Shown piece by piece: positions 16,705-47,687 of a stretch of DNA of 64,000 bases (positions are counted from its first letter, which is position 1; every line of letters starts with the position of its first letter). This DNA comes from Xanthomarina maritima. GTDB taxonomy: Bacteria; Bacteroidota; Bacteroidia; Flavobacteriales; Flavobacteriaceae. Made by a program: the position numbers and the translations under genes. Below the pieces are notes generated by a model that had not been told where the DNA came from, ran no database searches, and saw nothing but the letters and a program-made list of their open reading frames with translations. Location of the stretch: NCBI RefSeq assembly GCF_008084905.1, contig NZ_VSFC01000052.1, positions 248,001 through 312,000 on the forward strand, given 5' to 3'.

Positions 16705-17457
16705 ATGGAACATATAGAATTATTTTTCAAATCAATATTTATAGATAACATGGTATTTTCAGTATTCCTGGGAATGTGTTCTTACCTTGCTGTATCTAAA
16801 AAAGTAGCAACAGCTGTTGGTTTAGGTGCTGCTGTTATTTTTGTATTAGCAATAACAGTGCCTTTAAACTGGTTACTGGATCAATACTTATTACAACCAG
16901 GAGCTCTAGTGTGGTTAGGAACTGAATATGCTGATTACGATTTAAGTTTCCTTTCATTTATCATGTTTATTGCTACCATTGCAACTATGGTACAACTAGT
17001 AGAAATAATTGTAGAGAAATTTTCTCCATCATTATATAATTCACTTGGTATTTTCTTGCCATTAATTGCTGTAAACTGTGCTATTTTAGGTGGTTCGTTA
17101 TTTATGCAATCAAGAGAAATAGCAACATTAGGATTGGCAACAACTTATGGAATAGGTTCAGGAATTGGATGGTTTTTAGCTATTCTTGCTATTGCTGCTA
17201 TTCGTGAAAAAATTAGATATTCGAATGTGCCTGCTCCATTAAGAGGATTAGGAATCACATTTATAATTACAGGTTTAATGGCAATTGGTTTTATGAGTTT
17301 TGGAGGTATGTTAACTGGAGGAGATGAAGAAGTTGTTGTTGAAGTAGAAACAGCAGAAGTAAAACCTGTAATAGAACAAGAAGAAATTAAAACAGAAGCT
17401 GAGGTTGCTGAAGGTAGCCAAAGCATCGCTGATAACACAATAAAAGTAATTGAATAG
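16705..17457 (+). CDS. nqrE: Na+-translocating NADH:quinone reductase subunit E, with acidic C-terminal tail
   Basis: 250 residues. Residues 1-203 are a standard Nqr[34 protein letters not shown] at the start with the iron-centre cysteine near 26, six helices, and [16 protein letters not shown] near 120 with the second cysteine. Beyond residue ~204 there is a 45-residue extension rich in Glu and Val ([18 protein letters not shown]...), absent from well-studied NqrE proteins of about 198 residues. The tail has no predicted membrane segment and probably lies in the cytoplasm or periplasm as a flexible acidic arm. The stop is 1 nt before the nqrF start. Confidence 0.94.
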
Positions 17458-17458
17458 C

Positions 17459-18769
17459 ATGATAGTATTAGCAGCAGGTACATTAGGTACAATCATCATT
17501 ACAGTAGTCGCTTTCTTAATAATTACATTGTTATTAGTAGCATTGTTATTGGTTGTAAAACAAAAATTATCTCCATCTGGTCCAGTAAAAATTACTATCA
17601 ATGGAGAAAAAACAATAGAAGTAGCATCTGGAGGAAGTTTATTATCAACCTTAGGATCAGAAAAAATATTTTTACCTTCAGCTTGTGGTGGTGGTGGAAC
17701 ATGTATTCAGTGTGAATGTCATGTATTATCTGGTGGAGGCGAAGCACTTCCAACAGAAACACCTCATTTTACACGTAAAGAATTACAACATGGAGCACGT
17801 TTATCTTGTCAGGTAAAAGTGAAACAAGACATGGAAATTACCATTCCAGAAGAAGTTTTTGGAATTAAAAAATGGGAAGCTACTGTTGTTCGCAATTATA
17901 ATGTAGCTTCATTTATAAAGGAATTTGTAGTTGAAATTCCTGAAGATATGGGTTATAAAGCAGGTGGATATATTCAAATAGAGATTCCTCCTTGTACTAT
18001 AAAATATGAAGACATGGACATTACAGCTCACCCAGAAGAGCATGAAACACCAGATAAGTTTCAAGCAGAATGGGATAAGTTTGGACTTTGGCCTTTAGTA
18101 ATGAAAAACGATGAAACTGTAGAAAGAGCATACTCAATGGCTTCTTATCCTGCAGAAGGACGTGAGATTATGTTAAACGTTCGTATTGCAACTCCACCAT
18201 GGGATAGAAATAAGAATGGATGGATGGATGTTAATCCAGGAGTCGCATCTTCTTATATATTCAATCAAAAACCAGGAGATAAAGTAACTATTTCTGGACC
18301 TTATGGAGAGTTCTTTATCAATGAAAGTGAATCTGAAATGCTTTATGTAGGTGGAGGAGCAGGAATGGCACCAATGCGTTCACATTTATATCATTTATTC
18401 AGAACATTAAAGACAGGTAGAAAAGTAACCTATTGGTATGGAGGGCGTTCTAAACGTGAGTTATTCTATTTAGATCATTTTCATAAATTAGAAAAAGATT
18501 TCCCTAACTTTAAGTTCTACTTAGCATTATCTGAACCATTACCAGAAGATAATTGGAAAGTAAAAGAAAACATTGATGCTCCTGGAGATGGGTTTGTTGG
18601 CTTTATTCACAATTGTGTTATAGACAACTACTTAGATCATCATGAGTCACCAGAGGATATTGAATTATATTTCTGTGGACCTCCTTTAATGAACAAAGCA
18701 GTTCAAAAAATGGGAGAAGATTTTGGAATTCCAGACGAGCATATTAGATTTGATGACTTTGGAGGATAG
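17459..18769 (+). CDS. nqrF: Na+-translocating NADH:quinone reductase subunit F
   Basis: 436 residues starting [10 protein letters not shown], an N-terminal membrane helix (to about 35), then a plant-type ferredoxin domain with the four [2Fe-2S] cysteines in [15 protein letters not shown] and RLSCQVKV, then an FAD domain ([10 protein letters not shown]) and an NADH-binding domain ([31 protein letters not shown]) ending in FDDFGG. This is the electron entry subunit: it takes a hydride from NADH via FAD and passes electrons to the Fe-S centre. Three codons upstream in frame are also open, but a start there would overlap nqrE. Last gene of the operon. Confidence 0.96.
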
Positions 18770-18871: not shown

Positions 18872-18888
18872 ACGAAAGAAAAACATTT

Positions 18889-19275
18889 TTATTTATATTC
18901 CATAATTAAAAATACAGCTGTAGTTTCACCTATGTTTAAAACTTCATGCTGTGTAATTTTATCATTACTAAAAGTATATCCTGTAGGAACATCAACTTCT
19001 CTAGTTCCAGAAGTATCTGATATTCTAAATTTCCCACCAGTGAGTGTGTATCCTACATGTGGATTGTGATAATGTTTTTCATGGCCAACACCTGGCGCAA
19101 ACGTGCATTTTAATACACGTAACTCTAAATTGTCTTCTATAATTTCGCAAACGGCTTGACCGTTCCAGCCTGCTTTTAGTGGGTCTGGTAAGGTGTTTTT
19201 CTTATTGCAACTAATTGCTGTAGTTAATAAAATTAAGATTAGTGATAAATGTATATGTCTAAAGAATTTAATCAT
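18889..19275 (-). CDS. Cupin-domain lipoprotein whose leader matches the DUF6090 start
   Basis: 128 residues. Residues 1-23 form a lipoprotein signal (LSLILILLTTAISC, lipobox Cys23), and the rest is a small cupin: FAPGVGHEKHYHNPHVGYTLTGG near 60-82 with metal-type histidines, then DVPTGYTFSNDKITQHEVLN with the last histidine. Cupins of this type bind a metal and act as enzymes or sensors; the substrate is unknown. The first 13 codons (MIKFFRHIHLSLI) align with those of the neighbouring DUF6090 genes, with 23 identical nucleotides at the start. The gene overlaps the preceding DUF6090 gene by 8 nt and is the last of the cluster. Confidence 0.8.
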   Translation of the reverse strand: MIKFFRHIHLSLILILLTTAISCNKKNTLPDPLKAGWNGQAVCEIIEDNLELRVLKCTFAPGVGHEKHYHNPHVGYTLTGGKFRISDTSGTREVDVPTGYTFSNDKITQHEVLNIGETTAVFLIMEYK

Positions 19276-19999
19276 TATAATTTTTTAAATAGTTGTTAAT
19301 GTCGTTGCTTAATGATTCAATTTTTGGAATTGTTTTGTTATAGGCATCTATATGATTGCTTTCTAGATTGATAATCCTGTAGTGTACAATATTTTTGTAA
19401 TACGTATCTATCCATAACTCATTAAAATTATTTGGACTTGCCGAAATTAGAAAATCAATGTTATTGAAATTTTTTAAATAATAAGGTCTGGTAATATCAT
19501 TAATATGTAATTCCATTGCGAATATGTTGTCTAGAAGCACATAATTATCTTCGAAGAGATTTACTATTTTAAGTCTAATATCATCGTTTTTAATAAGTCT
19601 TAAACTTGATGCTTTTAGGTCTTCGTAAAAAGCTTTATTTATACGAATGGAATGCACTCCATATACGGCTCCAAAAAGCGTGTCTAGTTGTTGTGAGTAG
19701 TTATAATCTTTATCTTTTAGTAAACCTTTTAATTCTTTCATTCTATCAACACATTGGCTAATAATGGCAAGTGAGTTTTGCATTAATTTACTATCGCGTT
19801 CAATACCATTTTTTAACTCAATAAGTGTTTTTATTTCTGCTTCTTTTTCTATTCTGTTATTATTCCAAGTATTAATTTGAAGTGCAATGAGAATACCAAT
19901 TACTACCAATACAATTTCACCAACAGCGTATTTAAAATACTTTCCTGTTTTATTTTCCATGAGTAGTGATTTACGAATATGTCTAAAGAATTTAATCAT
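19268..19999 (-). CDS. DUF6090 family membrane-anchored protein (cluster copy 7)
   Basis: 243 residues. Basic cytoplasmic start (MIKFFRHIRKSLLMENK), then one membrane helix in YFKYAVGEIVLVVIGILIAL (about 21-42), then ~200 helical, charged residues probably in the periplasm. The second family motif is weak here: LKASSLRLIKNDDIR (128-142), with Ser-Ser where other copies have Ser/Thr-Gly. Its stop TAA lies inside the start ATGATTAA of the cupin gene. The 36 nt around its start (19965-20000) are identical to those of copy 3 at 25136-25171. Function unknown. Confidence 0.8.
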   Translation of the reverse strand: MIKFFRHIRKSLLMENKTGKYFKYAVGEIVLVVIGILIALQINTWNNNRIEKEAEIKTLIELKNGIERDSKLMQNSLAIISQCVDRMKELKGLLKDKDYNYSQQLDTLFGAVYGVHSIRINKAFYEDLKASSLRLIKNDDIRLKIVNLFEDNYVLLDNIFAMELHINDITRPYYLKNFNNIDFLISASPNNFNELWIDTYYKNIVHYRIINLESNHIDAYNKTIPKIESLSNDINNYLKNYND

Positions 20000-20033
20000 T
20001 AGTTTTTGTTCTTGATGATAAAAACATTTGTTT

Positions 20034-20774
20034 TTATTTTAGTTCTCTATTTATAAGTTCTGTAACCTCATTAATATCAAATAAAATCTTTTCAAAGCTT
20101 TCAAGGCTACCATTTTCCGATAATTCTTTTAAATGTTGAGCTGATTCCAAAGCCAAAAGCAATTCAATTTGTCTATTTTCTTCAAATATATATTCTGAAA
20201 ATTGAGGTTGATTCACAATTCTTTGAAGGAGCGAGCCACTTCCAAAATATCTAGTAGCGTAATTTGTCATTTCTAAACTTAAATTATTATTGGCATTTGA
20301 TACAAATTCTGTGTGATCTTGGGTTATTTTAAGGTCTGTTAATTTATCTCTTATATGTGTTGGTATTAACTTAATTTCACCTGTATTCTGTAGTGAAGTT
20401 ATTGTATTTGATGGAAATTGAACATCACGACAAAACCAATCTAAATTACTTATGTTTTCTAAAATTTCTGTTGTAGGTAAGTTAGGCTGTTTAAAAATAT
20501 CTGTATAGGTTTTTAATTTAATCATATTAGAATCAAAGTTTTTTGACGTCTTTTCTATATAATTTTTGTCTTTTTCTAGATCTTGTAATAATTGTTTGTA
20601 ATAAACTTGCCTTATGTTTTCAATCTTTCTTTCATCATTTAGGTTGTTTAGTTGTAAGGCAATTAAAATACCAATAACCACAAGAATGATTTCGCCAATG
20701 GCGTATTTGATATATTTGGATGTTTTATTTTGCTCCATGAGATTGTATCTTATTTTTCTGAAAAGCTTTATCAT
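20034..20774 (-). CDS. DUF6090 family membrane-anchored protein (cluster copy 6)
   Basis: 246 residues: MIKLFRKIRYNLMEQNK, membrane helix in YIKYAIGEIILVVIGILIAL, then a long helical domain (QVYYKQLLQDLEKDKNYIEKT suggests a coil at 56-80). Second motif SLQNTGEIKLIPTHIR at 127-142. It departs from the other copies by Leu4 and by LNNLNDER in place of INNWNENR after the helix, so it is one of the more diverged anchors. It lies 14 bp after ggt and 34 bp before copy 7. No enzymatic motif is visible; single-pass inner membrane protein by inference. Confidence 0.8.
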   Translation of the reverse strand: MIKLFRKIRYNLMEQNKTSKYIKYAIGEIILVVIGILIALQLNNLNDERKIENIRQVYYKQLLQDLEKDKNYIEKTSKNFDSNMIKLKTYTDIFKQPNLPTTEILENISNLDWFCRDVQFPSNTITSLQNTGEIKLIPTHIRDKLTDLKITQDHTEFVSNANNNLSLEMTNYATRYFGSGSLLQRIVNQPQFSEYIFEENRQIELLLALESAQHLKELSENGSLESFEKILFDINEVTELINRELK

Positions 20775-20788
20775 AAAAAATCGTTTAA

Positions 20789-22486
20789 TTAATATCCAAC
20801 GGCAGCACCTTCTGGTCGAGATGAATCTGCTGCTCCTGTAATAATTTTATTTTCTGGATTTAGGGTTATTCCCATTAAAGCACCTAAACCACTTGATGCT
20901 TGTAACGTATGTCCCATAGATTCTAAGGCTTTTCGAGTATCTGGAGACATTAAATCAATTTCATAATCAAGAACATCTGGTGACCATTGATGGTGAATTT
21001 TCATAACTTCAATGGCTTTATTAATTGGCATGTTAAACTCTAAAACATTTAGTGTGGTTTGAAAAACCGTATTGATAATGGTTCTTCCTCCAGGACTTCC
21101 TATAATTAAATATGGTTTACCATCTTTTGCAACAATTGTAGGTGTCATGCTAGAAAGCATGCGTTTTTGTGGAGCTACCAAATTTGGTTTCGTGCCAATT
21201 TGCCAACCTGAGGTTGTTACGCCTGGAACTGGATTAAAATCTCCCATTTCGTTATTGAAAATAAACCCAAGTTCCTTAGAACCCATTTTAACACCATACC
21301 AATTTTCTAGTGTGTAAGTAAGAGAAACAGCATTTCCATCTTTATCGATTACCGAAAGATGCGTGGTGTTTTTTCCATCATAGATTTGACCAAATTTTGT
21401 AGAATCGCTTAAAGAAGCTCTTTCCATATTAATGTTATCAAACCTATTTTTTGCAAATTCTTTTGAGGTTAATCTATCTAATGGCATGTCTAAATTAAAA
21501 TCTGGATCGCCTAAAAATTCAGCACGATCAGCAAAGGCTCTACGCATGGCTTCTGTAAGTATATGAACATATTCGGTTGAATTAAATTCTATGGTGTCCC
21601 AATCAACCAACTCCATCAGGTTCATCATTTCAATAAGTGCTACACCACCTGAACTTGGTGGTGGCATGCCATAAATATCAAACCCTTTGTAAGTCCCTTT
21701 TATGGGTTCACGCTCAATGGCATCATATTCTTTTAAGTCTTCAGTAGTAATAATGCCTCCATTGGCTTTCATGTAATTGGCTATTGTTTTTGCCACTTCT
21801 CCTTTGTAAAATCCATCGCGACCATGATCTCTTATTTGTTTTAAGGTGTTAGCTAAAGCAGGTTGTTTCCATGTGTCTCCTGGTTGAGAGATGTCACCTT
21901 CTTCATTATTAAAAAAGATTGCCATAAACGGATATTCTTCAGCGATACTATTAAAATATAATGCTTCCCGATATAAGGTCCAATTAAATTCAAAGCCATT
22001 TTCTGCTAAATGAATAGCAGGTTGTACCAAATCTTTCCAAGGTAATGTTCCATATTTCTGATGTGCTAAATACAAGCCTGCAACAGTCCCTGGAACTCCA
22101 ACAGCTAATAAACCTTTATGGTTGCTATCCTCTTTTATATTGCCATTTTCGTCTAAAAACATGGTTTCTGAAGAAGCCAAAGGTGCTTTCTCGCGAAAGT
22201 CGATGGTTGTTGTTTTTCCTTCAGAATTCATAAACACCATAAAACCACCACCTCCAATATTTCCAGCCGTTGGATGCGTTACAGCTAAAGCAAATGCAGT
22301 AGCAATAGCAGCATCGACAGCATTACCACCTTGTTTTAAAATATTAACTCCTGTTTGAGAAGCTATTTTACTAGCAGTAACTACCATACCATTTTTGGCA
22401 TAGGTTTGCGCATTTAAAATGAATGAATTCGTGAATAGAAAAAGACCTAGTAAGAAAGTGAAAAGTGATTTTATTATTATTTTCAT
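20789..22486 (-). CDS. ggt: Gamma-glutamyltransferase (glutathione hydrolase)
   Basis: 565 residues with a signal peptide (MKIIIKSLFTFLLGLFLFTNSFILNAQ). It is made as one chain that cuts itself: the new N-terminus and nucleophile should be T374 in GKNTTHLSV. Other family marks are ASQTGVNILKQGGNAVDAAIA near 43, GGGGFMVF near 79, DFREKAP near 96 (Arg and Glu for the glutamate carboxylate), PPPSSGGVALIEMMN near 275, and MLSSMTPTIV and SPGGRTIINTV near 441-470. It splits gamma-glutamyl bonds such as in glutathione, in the periplasm. It sits inside a row of DUF6090 genes, 14 bp before copy 6, and is probably co-transcribed. Confidence 0.96.
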   Translation of the reverse strand: MKIIIKSLFTFLLGLFLFTNSFILNAQTYAKNGMVVTASKIASQTGVNILKQGGNAVDAAIATAFALAVTHPTAGNIGGGGFMVFMNSEGKTTTIDFREKAPLASSETMFLDENGNIKEDSNHKGLLAVGVPGTVAGLYLAHQKYGTLPWKDLVQPAIHLAENGFEFNWTLYREALYFNSIAEEYPFMAIFFNNEEGDISQPGDTWKQPALANTLKQIRDHGRDGFYKGEVAKTIANYMKANGGIITTEDLKEYDAIEREPIKGTYKGFDIYGMPPPSSGGVALIEMMNLMELVDWDTIEFNSTEYVHILTEAMRRAFADRAEFLGDPDFNLDMPLDRLTSKEFAKNRFDNINMERASLSDSTKFGQIYDGKNTTHLSVIDKDGNAVSLTYTLENWYGVKMGSKELGFIFNNEMGDFNPVPGVTTSGWQIGTKPNLVAPQKRMLSSMTPTIVAKDGKPYLIIGSPGGRTIINTVFQTTLNVLEFNMPINKAIEVMKIHHQWSPDVLDYEIDLMSPDTRKALESMGHTLQASSGLGALMGITLNPENKIITGAADSSRPEGAAVGY

Positions 22487-22940: not shown

Positions 22941-23687
22941 TTAATTTTTTAATGTTGTGTATTTAATAATGGTGTCTGTAATGCTATTTAAATTTTCATA
23001 TTCCTCTTTTAGAATGGCAAAATGATAGATGTTGTTGTCTATCATGTTTTCAAATTTTCGGTCGTTGATGATGTATTTGAAACCATCATCAAACCTGGAT
23101 TTTTCTTTCCAATTTAAGGAGCCGTACATATCCATATTCCTTAAAGCAATATGTTCAGCTAAATAAGGTAGAATGCCACCTTCTATCCATTTTTCTAACA
23201 TGATATATGTAGCCTTGTTGTTTTCTAAATCTCTGTAATATACAAACAAAGCATTTTTTATGGTCTCATTTTTAAGAAGCTCAATCTCTCCAGTATTTAA
23301 TATTTCGGTATAGGTGTTATTATTGGGAATAAAGGGTCTGTATTCTAGTGCCATGTATAACAGACTATCTAACTGTTTGGCATTTTCATGTGTTTCGCCA
23401 ATTAATAAAATATCCATGATTCCTAAACAAGCATCTGTGCCTTGTTGAACGGCATTAAGCATGTTTGTATTGAGTATTTTGTTTTGGGTGAATTCCTGAT
23501 GTAAATTCGCTATAATTTGCTGTTCTTTTTTTAGGTCTTTTTGGTTTTCGTTCCAATTATTTATTTGAAGTGCAATGAGAATACCAATAACCACGAGGAT
23601 AATTTCGCCAATAGCGTATTTGAAATATTTAGAAGTTTTATTTTCCATAAGTAAAGATTTCCTGATATGTCTAAAAAATTTAATCAT
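22941..23687 (-). CDS. DUF6090 family membrane-anchored protein (cluster copy 5)
   Basis: 248 residues with the near-consensus anchor MIKFFRHIRKSLLMENK plus YFKYAIGEIILVVIGILIAL and QINNWNENQ. Past the helix comes a polar helical region (DLKKEQQIIANLHQEF) and the second family motif TEILNTGEIELLKNETIK at 127-144, which is followed by the ALFVYYRDLE helix. The C-terminal 100 residues share little with the other copies by eye. It starts 7 bp after the stop of copy 4. A periplasm-facing C-terminal domain is inferred from the basic start. Confidence 0.82.
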   Translation of the reverse strand: MIKFFRHIRKSLLMENKTSKYFKYAIGEIILVVIGILIALQINNWNENQKDLKKEQQIIANLHQEFTQNKILNTNMLNAVQQGTDACLGIMDILLIGETHENAKQLDSLLYMALEYRPFIPNNNTYTEILNTGEIELLKNETIKNALFVYYRDLENNKATYIMLEKWIEGGILPYLAEHIALRNMDMYGSLNWKEKSRFDDGFKYIINDRKFENMIDNNIYHFAILKEEYENLNSITDTIIKYTTLKN

Positions 23688-23694
23688 AAATAAC

Positions 23695-24435
23695 TTACTG
23701 TTTGCGAAGTTTGGTTAATAATTCATTTGTTTTTTCTAAAACGAGAGGTAAATGCCTTAAGGATAACCTGTAGGCATCTCCTTTACTTAAAAGGATGGCG
23801 TTGAATTCGGTAGCATGATTAACTAATGAAGCATTATTCCAGATAAGATCTGCAATTTTGCTATCCTTCTGAATTGCATTAGATTGAAATGGAATGGGAT
23901 ATTTTAGCGAATATGCTCTTAAAATATCTACATAACCAACAAAAGTTTGTGTAGTTGAAAAATTTGCGGTTTCTTGAAGATTATTAAGAATATTAAGATC
24001 TTTAATTAATTCTTCGCTAAATAAAGAGATATTGCCTGTGGATGATAATACGCTGTATGTATCATCATTAAAGTCTGGATGAATCCATATTAAAAAATCA
24101 TATTCATAACGTGCAATTTTTAGCAAGGTGTCTAAGGTAGCAGTTGGTTTAGAAACTCGGGTTTCATAATTTTTAATAGCTGCTGAATCCTGTTTAGTAC
24201 CACGAATGGATTCCATAATTTCCATACTATCTTTTGCAAGATCTTCTATTAAACTTATTTTATAATTATGGACTAAAGTTTTATTTTTTCTATTCTCATT
24301 CCAATCATTTATTTGAAGCGCAATTAAAATTCCAATAACTACAAGGACTATCTCGCCAATGGCGTATTTAAAGTACTTGCCTGTTTTTCCTGTTTCCATT
24401 AAGGTGAATCGTATTTTTCTAAAAAATTTAATCAT
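23695..24435 (-). CDS. DUF6090 family membrane-anchored protein (cluster copy 4)
   Basis: 246 residues: MIKFFRKIRFTLMETGK, helix in YFKYAIGEIVLVVIGILIAL, then QINDWNENRK. The second motif appears as SVLSSTGNISLFSEELIK (128-145). The preceding stretch IARYEYDFLIWIHPDF and following TANFSTTQTFVGYVDILRAY are unlike the sister copies. It starts 9 bp after copy 3. The downstream gene, copy 5, follows 7 bp later. As in the other copies no cysteine pair, catalytic triad or ligand motif is evident, so I leave function open. Confidence 0.82.
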   Translation of the reverse strand: MIKFFRKIRFTLMETGKTGKYFKYAIGEIVLVVIGILIALQINDWNENRKNKTLVHNYKISLIEDLAKDSMEIMESIRGTKQDSAAIKNYETRVSKPTATLDTLLKIARYEYDFLIWIHPDFNDDTYSVLSSTGNISLFSEELIKDLNILNNLQETANFSTTQTFVGYVDILRAYSLKYPIPFQSNAIQKDSKIADLIWNNASLVNHATEFNAILLSKGDAYRLSLRHLPLVLEKTNELLTKLRKQ

Positions 24436-24444
24436 GTTTGCAAA

Positions 24445-25170
24445 TTAATTATTTGACTCTTTTATAATTTCTTTAATGATGTTTTGAGCATCTAAATATT
24501 CCTTTTTTCTTATAAGAACAACCTGATTATAGTTAATTAAAAAACTCATAAAGATTTTATCTTTTAAAAGTAATTCAACTAACTGTTTGTGTTTTGACAA
24601 ATTGCCAGAGTTGATACTAGTCATTAGATCAAAATAAATCCCATTATTTAATGTATAGGATAATAGATTTTGATAAGAAATTTCTGAAACTTTTATATCT
24701 TCAAGATAGTCTGTATAGAAAGAGTACCAGTTATATAAGCTCTGTTTTAAATGATTGTTAGATATTTTTGAGAGCTTACCACTATTTTTTAAATCGTCTA
24801 AAATCATCAAGCTAGGATTCCAAGTAGGATGTTTAAACGCTTTTTGGAATGCGATAGACAAGTTGTTCGTTTTATTAAGATCATTATAATTTATTAAATA
24901 GTCTTGATTATTAAGAACAGTATCTATTCTAACGATATCATATTCTGATAGTAGTTTTAAATTTTTTTTAAATTCAGAACGCATATCTGTAAGCAGCTTT
25001 ACTTCTTCATTTTTTTCTAACCGAATTGTATTCCAATTATTTATACTTAAAGCAATAAGAATGCCTATTACCACAAGGATAATTTCACCAATGGCATATT
25101 TAAAATACTTGCCTGTTTTTCCTGTTTCCATAAGGAGTGATTTACGAATATGTCTAAAGAATTTAATCAT
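24445..25170 (-). CDS. DUF6090 family membrane-anchored protein (cluster copy 3)
   Basis: 241 residues, the shortest copy. Start MIKFFRHIRKSLLMETGK, helix in YFKYAIGEIILVVIGILIAL, then SINNWNTIRLEKNEE leading into a coil (about 50-75). Second motif DLKNSGKLSKISNNHLKQ at 126-143, followed by SLYNWYSFYTDYLEDI. Its ATG overlaps the TGA of copy 2 as ATGA. The 36 nt at its start are identical to those of copy 7, about 5 kb away, although the C-terminal halves of the two proteins are clearly different, which suggests recent exchange or strong constraint at the 5' end. Confidence 0.82.
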   Translation of the reverse strand: MIKFFRHIRKSLLMETGKTGKYFKYAIGEIILVVIGILIALSINNWNTIRLEKNEEVKLLTDMRSEFKKNLKLLSEYDIVRIDTVLNNQDYLINYNDLNKTNNLSIAFQKAFKHPTWNPSLMILDDLKNSGKLSKISNNHLKQSLYNWYSFYTDYLEDIKVSEISYQNLLSYTLNNGIYFDLMTSINSGNLSKHKQLVELLLKDKIFMSFLINYNQVVLIRKKEYLDAQNIIKEIIKESNN

Positions 25171-25970
25171 TGAATCTGGTACTTTTCTTTTATAAGCTGC
25201 ATAAGTTCCTCAGCCATTTGTTTTTGATTAGTAATTATGAGATTAAGATTGTTTAGAGTGGTTCTGTAAAATAAAATGTCGTTATAGTAGCGTCCAAATA
25301 GTTGATTGTCGAACTTTAAAAAATAGTTACCTTCAAGAGTCATCTCATTAAAAGTCTCAATTGGAGCTAACATATTGTTATTGTCTTCTTCTATAAACTC
25401 ATACACTTTTTTAGCCAAGCTTAAATTGAATATGCTTTTTTGAGTATTCTCATGTTCATGAAAATAATGCTTAATCTCATCGTATCGATGGTAACAATCT
25501 TCTAATCCTAAAGTATAATTAATAATGGCTTCGGAAATGGTATGGTGTTGAATAAGTTGAAAGTTTCCTGCATTTTTTAATTGAGACAATGTTACATCTG
25601 AGAATTCGGCTTGAAAGTACCAGTAAGTATATTTCACCGAATAGAGATACAATAAACGTTGCTCTGTTAGATCTGTTGATGGAGCTGCAATCATTTTTAG
25701 TAAGTCATTGAGGCCATTGAGTAATTCTGTATTACCTGAAACTGTTTGATTTATGTTCGTGATATCACTTTCAAGATCATTGAGTAAAGAAGTCATGTAT
25801 TGTTTTTCAAGTATTCTGTCCTTTTTCTCTAGGTTACTATTGTTAATTTGTAGTGCAATTAAAATTCCTATCACAACAAGAACTATTTCGCCAATAGCAT
25901 AAAGTAAATATCTAGAAACTTTGTTTTCCTTTATCATTTGTTGTCGGATTTTACGAAAGAATTTAATCAT
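25167..25970 (-). CDS. DUF6090 family membrane-anchored protein (cluster copy 2)
   Basis: 267 residues, the longest copy. The anchor is a variant: MIKFFRKIRQQMIKENKVSRYLLYAIGEI, with LLY in place of FKY, shared only with the copy in the kynurenine operon. After the helix come QINNSNLEKKDRILEKQY and a helical domain; second motif SQLKNAGNFQLIQHHTIS at 129-146, then EAIINYTLGLEDCYHRYDE. Its start overlaps the stop of copy 1 by ATGA, and its own stop overlaps copy 3 in the same way, so three genes are chained by 4-nt overlaps. Confidence 0.82.
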   Translation of the reverse strand: MIKFFRKIRQQMIKENKVSRYLLYAIGEIVLVVIGILIALQINNSNLEKKDRILEKQYMTSLLNDLESDITNINQTVSGNTELLNGLNDLLKMIAAPSTDLTEQRLLYLYSVKYTYWYFQAEFSDVTLSQLKNAGNFQLIQHHTISEAIINYTLGLEDCYHRYDEIKHYFHEHENTQKSIFNLSLAKKVYEFIEEDNNNMLAPIETFNEMTLEGNYFLKFDNQLFGRYYNDILFYRTTLNNLNLIITNQKQMAEELMQLIKEKYQIQ

Positions 25971-26755
25971 AACTCATTCTTTAAATCTTCATTAATTAAA
26001 CGAATAAGCTGTTTTAGATGCAGCTTCATCTTATCATAAAGAGATTTTATTCCCATGTTATTAACAGCAGCTAGTTTTAAACCATTCTTTATCATCCTAT
26101 CCTTTTGGATAAATTCAGATTCTTTATAAAACAAGTCAACTTGCTCAATGGTTAGTGTTGTATCTAAAGTTATACCTGATTTCAAAGATGCTTCGAAATC
26201 GAGTAGCGGAAACATGGTCGAGTTAGCAAAAGACCTGTCATATAGGTAATGTTCATATTCTCTGCGCATATGTTCACGAGCTCCTACAATTCGATCGTTT
26301 TCTTGATTTAAAACAAGTATTAAGGTTTTAATGCTATCGTTTTGAATCAGGCTTAATTGTCCCGAACTAATAAGTTCTTGACGTGTAGTACTACTAGGAA
26401 CAAAACTAGTCCAACCATATACATTCATATACAAAGAGTCTAAGGTAGTTAACTCTTTTTTTGATGTAGCTCCAGGCAGTTTTAGTAGTTTAAAAGCTGA
26501 TTCTGTTTTACTAACTCTGTCTTTAGAAAGAGAATCTAGATTATAGAGATCAACCTCTAAATCGGTTTTTAAATTTTTAAGAAATTTTTGCTCAATTAGC
26601 CTGTTTTTCTTACTCGTGTTCCAGTTGCTTACATGTAGAGCCATCAAAATACCAATCATTACTAAAAGTATTTCGCCAATGGCATATTTAAAATATTTTG
26701 TGGTTTTTCCTTCATTAAGGAGGTTTTGGCGAATGCGCCTAAAGAACTTAATCAT
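25967..26755 (-). CDS. DUF6090 family membrane-anchored protein (cluster copy 1, first gene)
   Basis: 262 residues: MIKFFRRIRQNLLNEGKTTK, helix YFKYAIGEILLVMIGILMAL, then HVSNWNTSKKNRLIEQKFLK. Second motif ELISSGQLSLIQNDSIKT at 127-144. This copy has no methionine at positions 13-14 (LLNE), which shows that the family start is the MIKFF methionine and not the later MEN seen in some copies. It is the 5' gene of the cluster; I find no full TAnnTTTG box upstream, only a 7-of-8 match at 26781-26788 on the minus strand. Function unknown. Confidence 0.82.
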   Translation of the reverse strand: MIKFFRRIRQNLLNEGKTTKYFKYAIGEILLVMIGILMALHVSNWNTSKKNRLIEQKFLKNLKTDLEVDLYNLDSLSKDRVSKTESAFKLLKLPGATSKKELTTLDSLYMNVYGWTSFVPSSTTRQELISSGQLSLIQNDSIKTLILVLNQENDRIVGAREHMRREYEHYLYDRSFANSTMFPLLDFEASLKSGITLDTTLTIEQVDLFYKESEFIQKDRMIKNGLKLAAVNNMGIKSLYDKMKLHLKQLIRLINEDLKNEL

Positions 26756-46864: not shown

Positions 46865-46934
46865 TTAGTAAATTTATAGTATTTTTATATTTTTATTTTC
46901 TTTGAATAGTGAATTCCATATTTGACAAAAGAAA

Positions 46935-47687
46935 TTAATCATCTAATCTTTTGATTTCTTTATCAATACGATTATTCAAGCTGTCAATTTTTACTATTAG
47001 TTGTTCTTTAAATAACATACTATAATTTCTTAAAGAAATATTTTCACTGATAATATTTAGAAATTCAGCATCATCTAGTAGTGCATTATAATTAATAGGT
47101 TTAGCATATTCATCATAAAATTCATTAGTTGAATAAGGAAAGTATTTTTGGAAAAACTTCACATGATTTGGATATATAATGTTTGCCAAATAATCCTTTT
47201 CCCATTGCTCATGTTCATTTTTTATTTGTCCAAAAAAATCTTCAAATACATAAATCAATTCTTTTCTTAGTGAATTATTTGTAATAAGATCAAGACCATC
47301 ATTTTTTAATTGGTCATAAGCTGCTGTAGTTAATTGAGCTTTTCCAGTCCAGTAATAAGTGCCAAAACAAATATCCAAGGACTTATCATAAGCTTTTTTA
47401 TTCTCTAAATAATCCTTAATTTTAAAATTGTAAGATTGCCATCTTTTATTATTGTTTACAAGACTTATTAAGTTTTGTTTAGATATTTCTAAAGCTGATT
47501 TTAACTCTTTTAATGTGCTAATTTCTGTATTCTGAATTTTGCGTTGTTCATTCCAGTTATTAATCTGAAGTGCAATTAAAATTCCAATTACTACCAAAAT
47601 TATTTCTCCAATGGCATAAAGTAAATACTTACTGAATTTATTTTCAGGAAGCATTTTAAATCTGATGCGTCGGAAAAATTTGAACAT
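46935..47687 (-). CDS. DUF6090 family membrane-anchored protein (eighth copy, within the kynurenine operon)
   Basis: 250 residues: MFKFFRRIRFKMLPENKFSK, helix in YLLYAIGEIILVVIGILIAL, then QINNWNEQRKIQNTEIST and a coil, with the second family motif QLKNDGLDLITNNSLRKE at 126-143. The LLY variant and the ENK-x-S-K/RYL string pair it with cluster copy 2. The gene is 3 bp after the RidA gene and 70 bp before ALDH, so it is carried inside the operon, 20 kb from the other seven copies. No link to kynurenine chemistry is visible in the protein itself. Confidence 0.82.
   Translation of the reverse strand: MFKFFRRIRFKMLPENKFSKYLLYAIGEIILVVIGILIALQINNWNEQRKIQNTEISTLKELKSALEISKQNLISLVNNNKRWQSYNFKIKDYLENKKAYDKSLDICFGTYYWTGKAQLTTAAYDQLKNDGLDLITNNSLRKELIYVFEDFFGQIKNEHEQWEKDYLANIIYPNHVKFFQKYFPYSTNEFYDEYAKPINYNALLDDAEFLNIISENISLRNYSMLFKEQLIVKIDSLNNRIDKEIKRLDD

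Follow-up and report, generated by a model that had tools for sequence, protein, structure and literature searches.

In the stretch of Xanthomarina maritima DNA that was analysed (the window, 64,000 nucleotides), a predicted cupin lipoprotein gene is preceded by a tandem array of DUF6090 genes, and, judged by sequence comparison, the leader of this cupin is DUF6090-derived (Table 1). This assignment is based on the low maxima of the control starts, the best match being the adjacent DUF6090 copy, the different leaders of homologous cupins, the array-type junction with the preceding gene, and the genus-wide occurrence of this leader type on DUF6090 genes. By the same comparison, the cupin gene and its export are old, because the orthologues share the nqrF locus and carry signals of their own, and just the front of the signal is new. 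A preliminary description had proposed that a new exported protein obtained its start through recombination or duplication at the shared 5′ end. The DUF6090-derived, local origin of the 5′ end was borne out, but the protein is not newly exported, as its orthologues are already predicted lipoproteins.

Table 1. Features of the window that bear on the origin of the cupin leader.
Feature	Position	Strand	Remarks
nqrF, convergent to cupin gene	17450..18769	+	locus marker common to relatives (synteny)
Cupin lipoprotein gene (predicted)	18889..19275	-	ORF, 128 aa; family-invariant residues all intact (GHEKHxHxxH, H110)
Leader of cupin gene, codons 1-13, DUF6090-derived by sequence comparison	19237..19275	-	nt 1-23 identical to neighbour; 34/39 overall
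8-nt overlap ATGATTAA of cupin ATG with stop of upstream DUF6090 gene	19268..19275	-	sequence
DUF6090 gene directly upstream of cupin gene	19268..19999	-	intact, 243 aa; PF19578 E 3.3e-8
Closest donor sequence, first 39 nt of adjacent DUF6090 gene	19961..19999	-	best of 65 DUF6090 starts
DUF6090 gene	20034..20774	-	PF19578 22.2 bits, slightly under cut-off 23.5
Gamma-glutamyltranspeptidase gene within DUF6090 cluster	20789..22486	-	PF01019 E 2e-160
Five more tandem DUF6090 genes	22941..26755	-	22941-23687, 23695-24435, 24445-25170, 25167-25970, 25967-26755
Further, independent DUF6090 5′ stub, body missing	46874..46942	-	MINFFCQIWNSLFKENKNIKIL, then stop; 41/54 nt identical to 19999 copy

The cupin ORF reads MIKFFRHIHLSLILILLTTAISC, and the ATG at 19275 is its sole plausible start. 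The protein begins with the MIKFFR-x-I leader of DUF6090, and codons 4-13 are TTC TTT AGA CAT ATA ... TCA CTA. The first 39 nt were compared with those of all seven DUF6090 genes in the cluster. As had been noticed before, nt 1-23 are identical in two of these genes, namely those starting at 19999 and 25170 (the latter being the copy 24445-25170), and 9 of the following 13 nt also agree with the 19999 copy. Over the 39 nt, the cupin gene and the 19999 copy agree at 34 positions. A gene-blind repeat search of positions 18880-20800 ranked these two sequences first among the direct repeats (50 nt, 82%, spacing 724). In total, 864 starts served as controls, of which 172 were in-frame ATGs of homologous cupins and the remaining 692 belonged to other ORFs. 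Over the 39 nt, the control maxima were 26 for the cupin starts and 25 for the other ORFs, compared to the observed 34. Over nt 24-39, the observed 11 of 16 matches were equalled by just five of the 864 controls, and therefore the homology between the cupin gene and DUF6090 probably extends to about codon 13. When 65 distinct DUF6090 starts from many genomes were ranked against the cupin leader, the adjacent gene came first and the other copy from the window second, which speaks for a local origin of the leader.

The exported protein was named a cupin on the grounds of fold and homology. It is not filed as a member of Cupin_2 (PF07883), because its score of 20.7 bits (E 3.5e-4) is below the Pfam cut-off of 27.2; 25 of 27 homologues matched this family at E<=0.01. 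An AlphaFold model with a mean pLDDT of 91 exhibited nine strands forming a double-stranded beta-barrel cupin domain. The model had 237 PDB matches at E<=0.001, with cupins on top and 2fqp and 3lag among them. The candidate metal ligands H65, H68, H70, H73, and H110 were invariant in an alignment with the 27 homologues. Comparison with close orthologues yielded a dN of about 0.09-0.13 and a dS of 1.2-1.9, and at the sequence level the cupin body is under selection. No match to the PF19578 domain was found in the cupin. The lipoprotein-type signal is composed of a basic n-region (MIKFFRHIH), the hydrophobic core LSLILILLTTAIS, and C23, whereby the signal features of the cupin and its orthologues were judged by eye and not with a trained predictor. 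The leader had been said to end in Cys23, and a cysteine is indeed read at residue 23; a lipoprotein would be lipidated at this residue and cleaved before it. Around the gene, promoter-like sites were not above those of shuffled sequence in a promoter scan, and a terminator scan revealed no terminator-like site. A search of the genome for a second cupin copy yielded only a weak relative at C12.

The leader of DUF6090 proteins is a basic stretch ahead of a transmembrane anchor (MENKTGKYFKYAVGEIVLVVIGILIALQI follows next) and thus no conventional signal peptide. The suggestion that the cupin had taken its signal peptide from a DUF6090 gene thus holds for the front, i.e., the n-region, which was replaced, but not for the core and the Cys of the existing signal, which are most simply regarded as native. 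In the genome of X. maritima, the leader was found at 16 places when up to three mismatches were allowed; at 15 of these it opens a DUF6090 reading frame (shortened to 67 codons in one instance), and the remaining place is the cupin gene. Across the genus (eight genomes), the exact leader MIKFFR-x-I occurs 98 times; 91 of these occurrences precede a Pfam DUF6090 match and six a cut-off or decayed DUF6090 gene, leaving the cupin as the only intact unrelated gene behind such a leader. The family is strongly expanded in this genome, with 51 PF19578 matches in 3.04 Mb, compared to 0 to 38 in the congeners. No mention of DUF6090 was found in the literature searched. In several congeners (loci L124, L125, and L127) the DUF6090 cluster near nqrF likewise has a gamma-glutamyltranspeptidase gene within it or next to it.

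The search for cupin homologues covered 397 genomes of the family as well as the GTDB contig collection. Alignments of the homologues with the window cupin typically start at residue 10-13, and their signal peptides are of every kind, e.g., MKIKKITILKPLLILALLLSSC or MTKKYILLFFTLGLVVLISGC. Orthologous bodies thus carry unrelated N-termini and meet at a sharp point (residue 10-13), in line with the join near residue 14 and the unrelated signals expected in the preliminary description. The DUF6090 leader is absent from the orthologues, and their other leaders likewise belong to signals ending in a Cys, so that they are predicted lipoproteins. In most of the Winogradskyella and Psychroserpens orthologues the cupin gene is convergent to nqrF, as it is in the window. 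A tree of the mature cupins placed the window cupin inside an nqrF-linked Winogradskyella clade (31 rows, 96/98), in which its exact sister is not fixed. A tree of NqrF, calculated to place the genus, contained too few changes for resolution; among the congeners compared, G002 was the nearest (NqrF 97%).

The junction between the cupin gene and the preceding DUF6090 gene is of the type that is found within the arrays. Among 48 DUF6090-DUF6090 junctions, the 8-nt overlap was present at six and a 4-nt version at twelve. In each of the two other frames, the motif ATGATTAA contains a stop codon (TGA or TAA), and therefore the leader terminates an incoming gene in either of those frames. DUF6090 5′ ends that have lost their bodies were also observed. 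The stub at 46874-46942 overlaps the stop of the DUF6090 gene 46935-47687 by ATGATTAA, exactly as at the cupin junction. In two congeners, G007 and G004, a FIST-domain gene is directly preceded by the 5′ end of a DUF6090 gene that breaks off after about 45-48 codons (L128:12718-12921 and L206:167-370). Since six of the 98 leaders in the genus belong to truncated or decayed DUF6090 genes, stubs beside other genes are a regular product of DUF6090 arrays, as before the FIST genes and, with the same overlap as at the cupin, at 46942. The FIST-adjacent stubs have a common tail and breakpoint and differ at their front ends, which suggests that recombination swaps front ends at array edges. The cupin gene looks like a DUF6090 stub that happened to join a signal sequence in frame.

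Taken together, it is probable that a DUF6090 copy at the edge of the array lost its body and that the cupin gene captured its start. The cupin gene, which has long encoded a lipoprotein beside nqrF, is situated where the DUF6090 tandem array ends on its downstream side. Behind the gene 19268-19999 there would once have been a further DUF6090 copy, whose body would have been lost in a deletion that extended in frame from about codon 9-13 of this copy into the cupin's own signal sequence. The cupin gene would thereby have gained a DUF6090 start codon that overlaps the stop of the preceding gene by 8 nt, and it would be co-translated with that gene. The hydrophobic core, Cys23, and the cupin domain would have remained native; for the core and the Cys box this is the simplest assumption. 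The basic first 8-13 DUF6090 residues would serve as the n-region of the cupin signal, a role for which the DUF6090 front appears suited, as it is a basic arm before a membrane anchor. An unfused intermediate or ancestor was not found in the genomes examined.

The chief rival is a short gene-conversion patch, which would have the same donor as the deletion. A native start of the MIK(F/Y) type would have been overwritten by a few dozen nt from the adjacent DUF6090 gene, with the shared ATGATTAAATTCTT as seed and without the deletion of any copy. This is considered possible but unlikely. Conversion has to be taken into account in view of L034 and L035, which by mature sequence are among the closest orthologues and start alike without DUF6090 nearby. 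They are located at the nqrF locus, begin with ATGATTAAAT, and their proteins start with MIKYLKSI and MIKFFKSV, respectively; codon 8 (ATA) of the window and its later TTAATTTT are also found in L034. Thus the first 10-14 nt of the cupin gene could be native. In the preliminary description, homologues with the MIKFFRHI start outside DUF6090 clusters had been named as evidence that the leader is native to the cupin. No exact case was found among the 105 other distinct cupin loci, but similar starts without DUF6090 neighbours (MIKYLKSI and MIKFFKSV of the two orthologues, MIKFFRSSS of L065, and MIKFLSSI of L158) leave room for a patched native MIK start. Conversely, L034 and L035 share just 23 of 39 nt with the window leader and lie in a poorly resolved part of the cupin tree, and a patch alone does not account for the 8 nt by which, as within the arrays, the cupin start overlaps the DUF6090 stop before it. 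The related cupins L158 and L065 start with MIKFLSSISKDK and MIKFFRSSSKDK, and DUF6090 is absent from their fetched flanks; these starts may reflect an old capture or chance.

Since AT-rich flavobacterial signal peptides often have a MIKFF-type start, the likeness to DUF6090 might also be coincidental. Indeed, eight of 106 cupins (including that of the window) share at least 26 of 39 nt with DUF6090 starts, and several of them lack a DUF6090 neighbour. Convergence is nevertheless very improbable, because 34 of 39 far exceeds the control maxima of 25-26, because 20 of the 25 positions 15-39, silent ones included, still agree when the first 14 nt are disregarded (maximum among the 864 control starts: 16), and because the top match of all is the neighbouring gene. 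Equally small is the chance that the cupin arrived together with its leader by horizontal transfer from a lineage in which it was already part of a DUF6090 operon. Such an origin would be in accord with the presence of same-strand DUF6090 genes near family cupins at 18 other loci in several genera, and with the absence of the cupin from the nqrF locus in seven of seven congeners (G001-G007), in which searches for remnants beside nqrF with tblastn and blastn retrieved only AT-rich noise and the DUF6090 leaders themselves. However, the cupin body belongs to the nqrF-linked Winogradskyella clade and lies beside nqrF as theirs do, and the leader fits best to the local DUF6090 copy and not to that of another lineage. 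The reverse direction, i.e., a leader of cupin origin that passed to DUF6090, can practically be dismissed, as no support for it was found, DUF6090 bears the MIKFFR-type leader in many genera and has 51 family matches here, and none of the 105 other cupins starts with MIKFFRHI.

At the 18 loci at which cupins occur near DUF6090 (examples are L154, L085, L146, L128, L156, L086, L072, L074, and L053), the two genes are always on the same strand, the loci differ from each other, and some of the genes abut. The proximity of cupin and DUF6090 genes possibly reflects a functional link. Other DUF6090-adjacent cupins were also considered as captures and were rejected, because their matches to the local copies were within chance (L085 23/39, L146 20, L128 22, L156 19). 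The cupin of Altibacter lentus, MIRFFEKSHQNL, follows a DUF6090 array with a 4-nt overlap and matches a local copy at 26 of 39 nt, a borderline value that is only suggestive of a second capture. It might be speculated that DUF6090 arrays are repeated donors of translation starts, that edge stubs end an incoming gene and open a new one at any site they reach, and that neighbours (this cupin, perhaps that of A. lentus) are occasionally captured in frame; this generalization is rather doubtful.

The favoured deletion reading describes an unusually clear replacement of a signal sequence, as the donor, the junction, and the likely intermediate (bodiless stubs) are visible in one genome. The case is a small one, in which a protein exchanged the first part of its export signal. 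It suggests that a lipoprotein signal can be headed by the basic front of a membrane anchor, and that growing arrays of paralogues can rewrite the starts of their neighbours.

In terminal reassortment, N-terminal signal regions are fused to new bodies, as in type III secreted proteins. The cupin gene is similar in that the promoter-proximal 5′ end of one gene is joined in frame to the body of another. In contrast, it has neither a secretion-system signal nor a new secreted function; the body had been exported before, with a hydrophobic core that it has retained. In Enterobacterales, bacterial orthologues gain and lose signal peptides via the acquisition or elimination of N-terminal regions, including 34 gains of whole segments (PMC5952966). 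As in these cases, the orthologue N-termini differ by block gain or loss, but the cupin had a signal before and after the event, only the front was swapped, the donor is located next door, and the donor is itself no cleaved signal peptide. The DUF6090 (PF19578) arrays supply the leader, the start codon, and the overlap junction of the cupin gene; however, the cupin is devoid of the DUF6090 transmembrane segment and domain and is not a member of the family. The exported domain has the fold of the small single-domain cupins BP2299 (2fqp) and RPA4178 (3lag) (rmsd 1.3-1.6, 88 columns), with weak sequence similarity and an identity of only 24-30%. Because both the gain and loss of N-terminal signals and terminal reassortment have already been described, the cupin adds a well-documented new case to a known process and does not constitute a new system.
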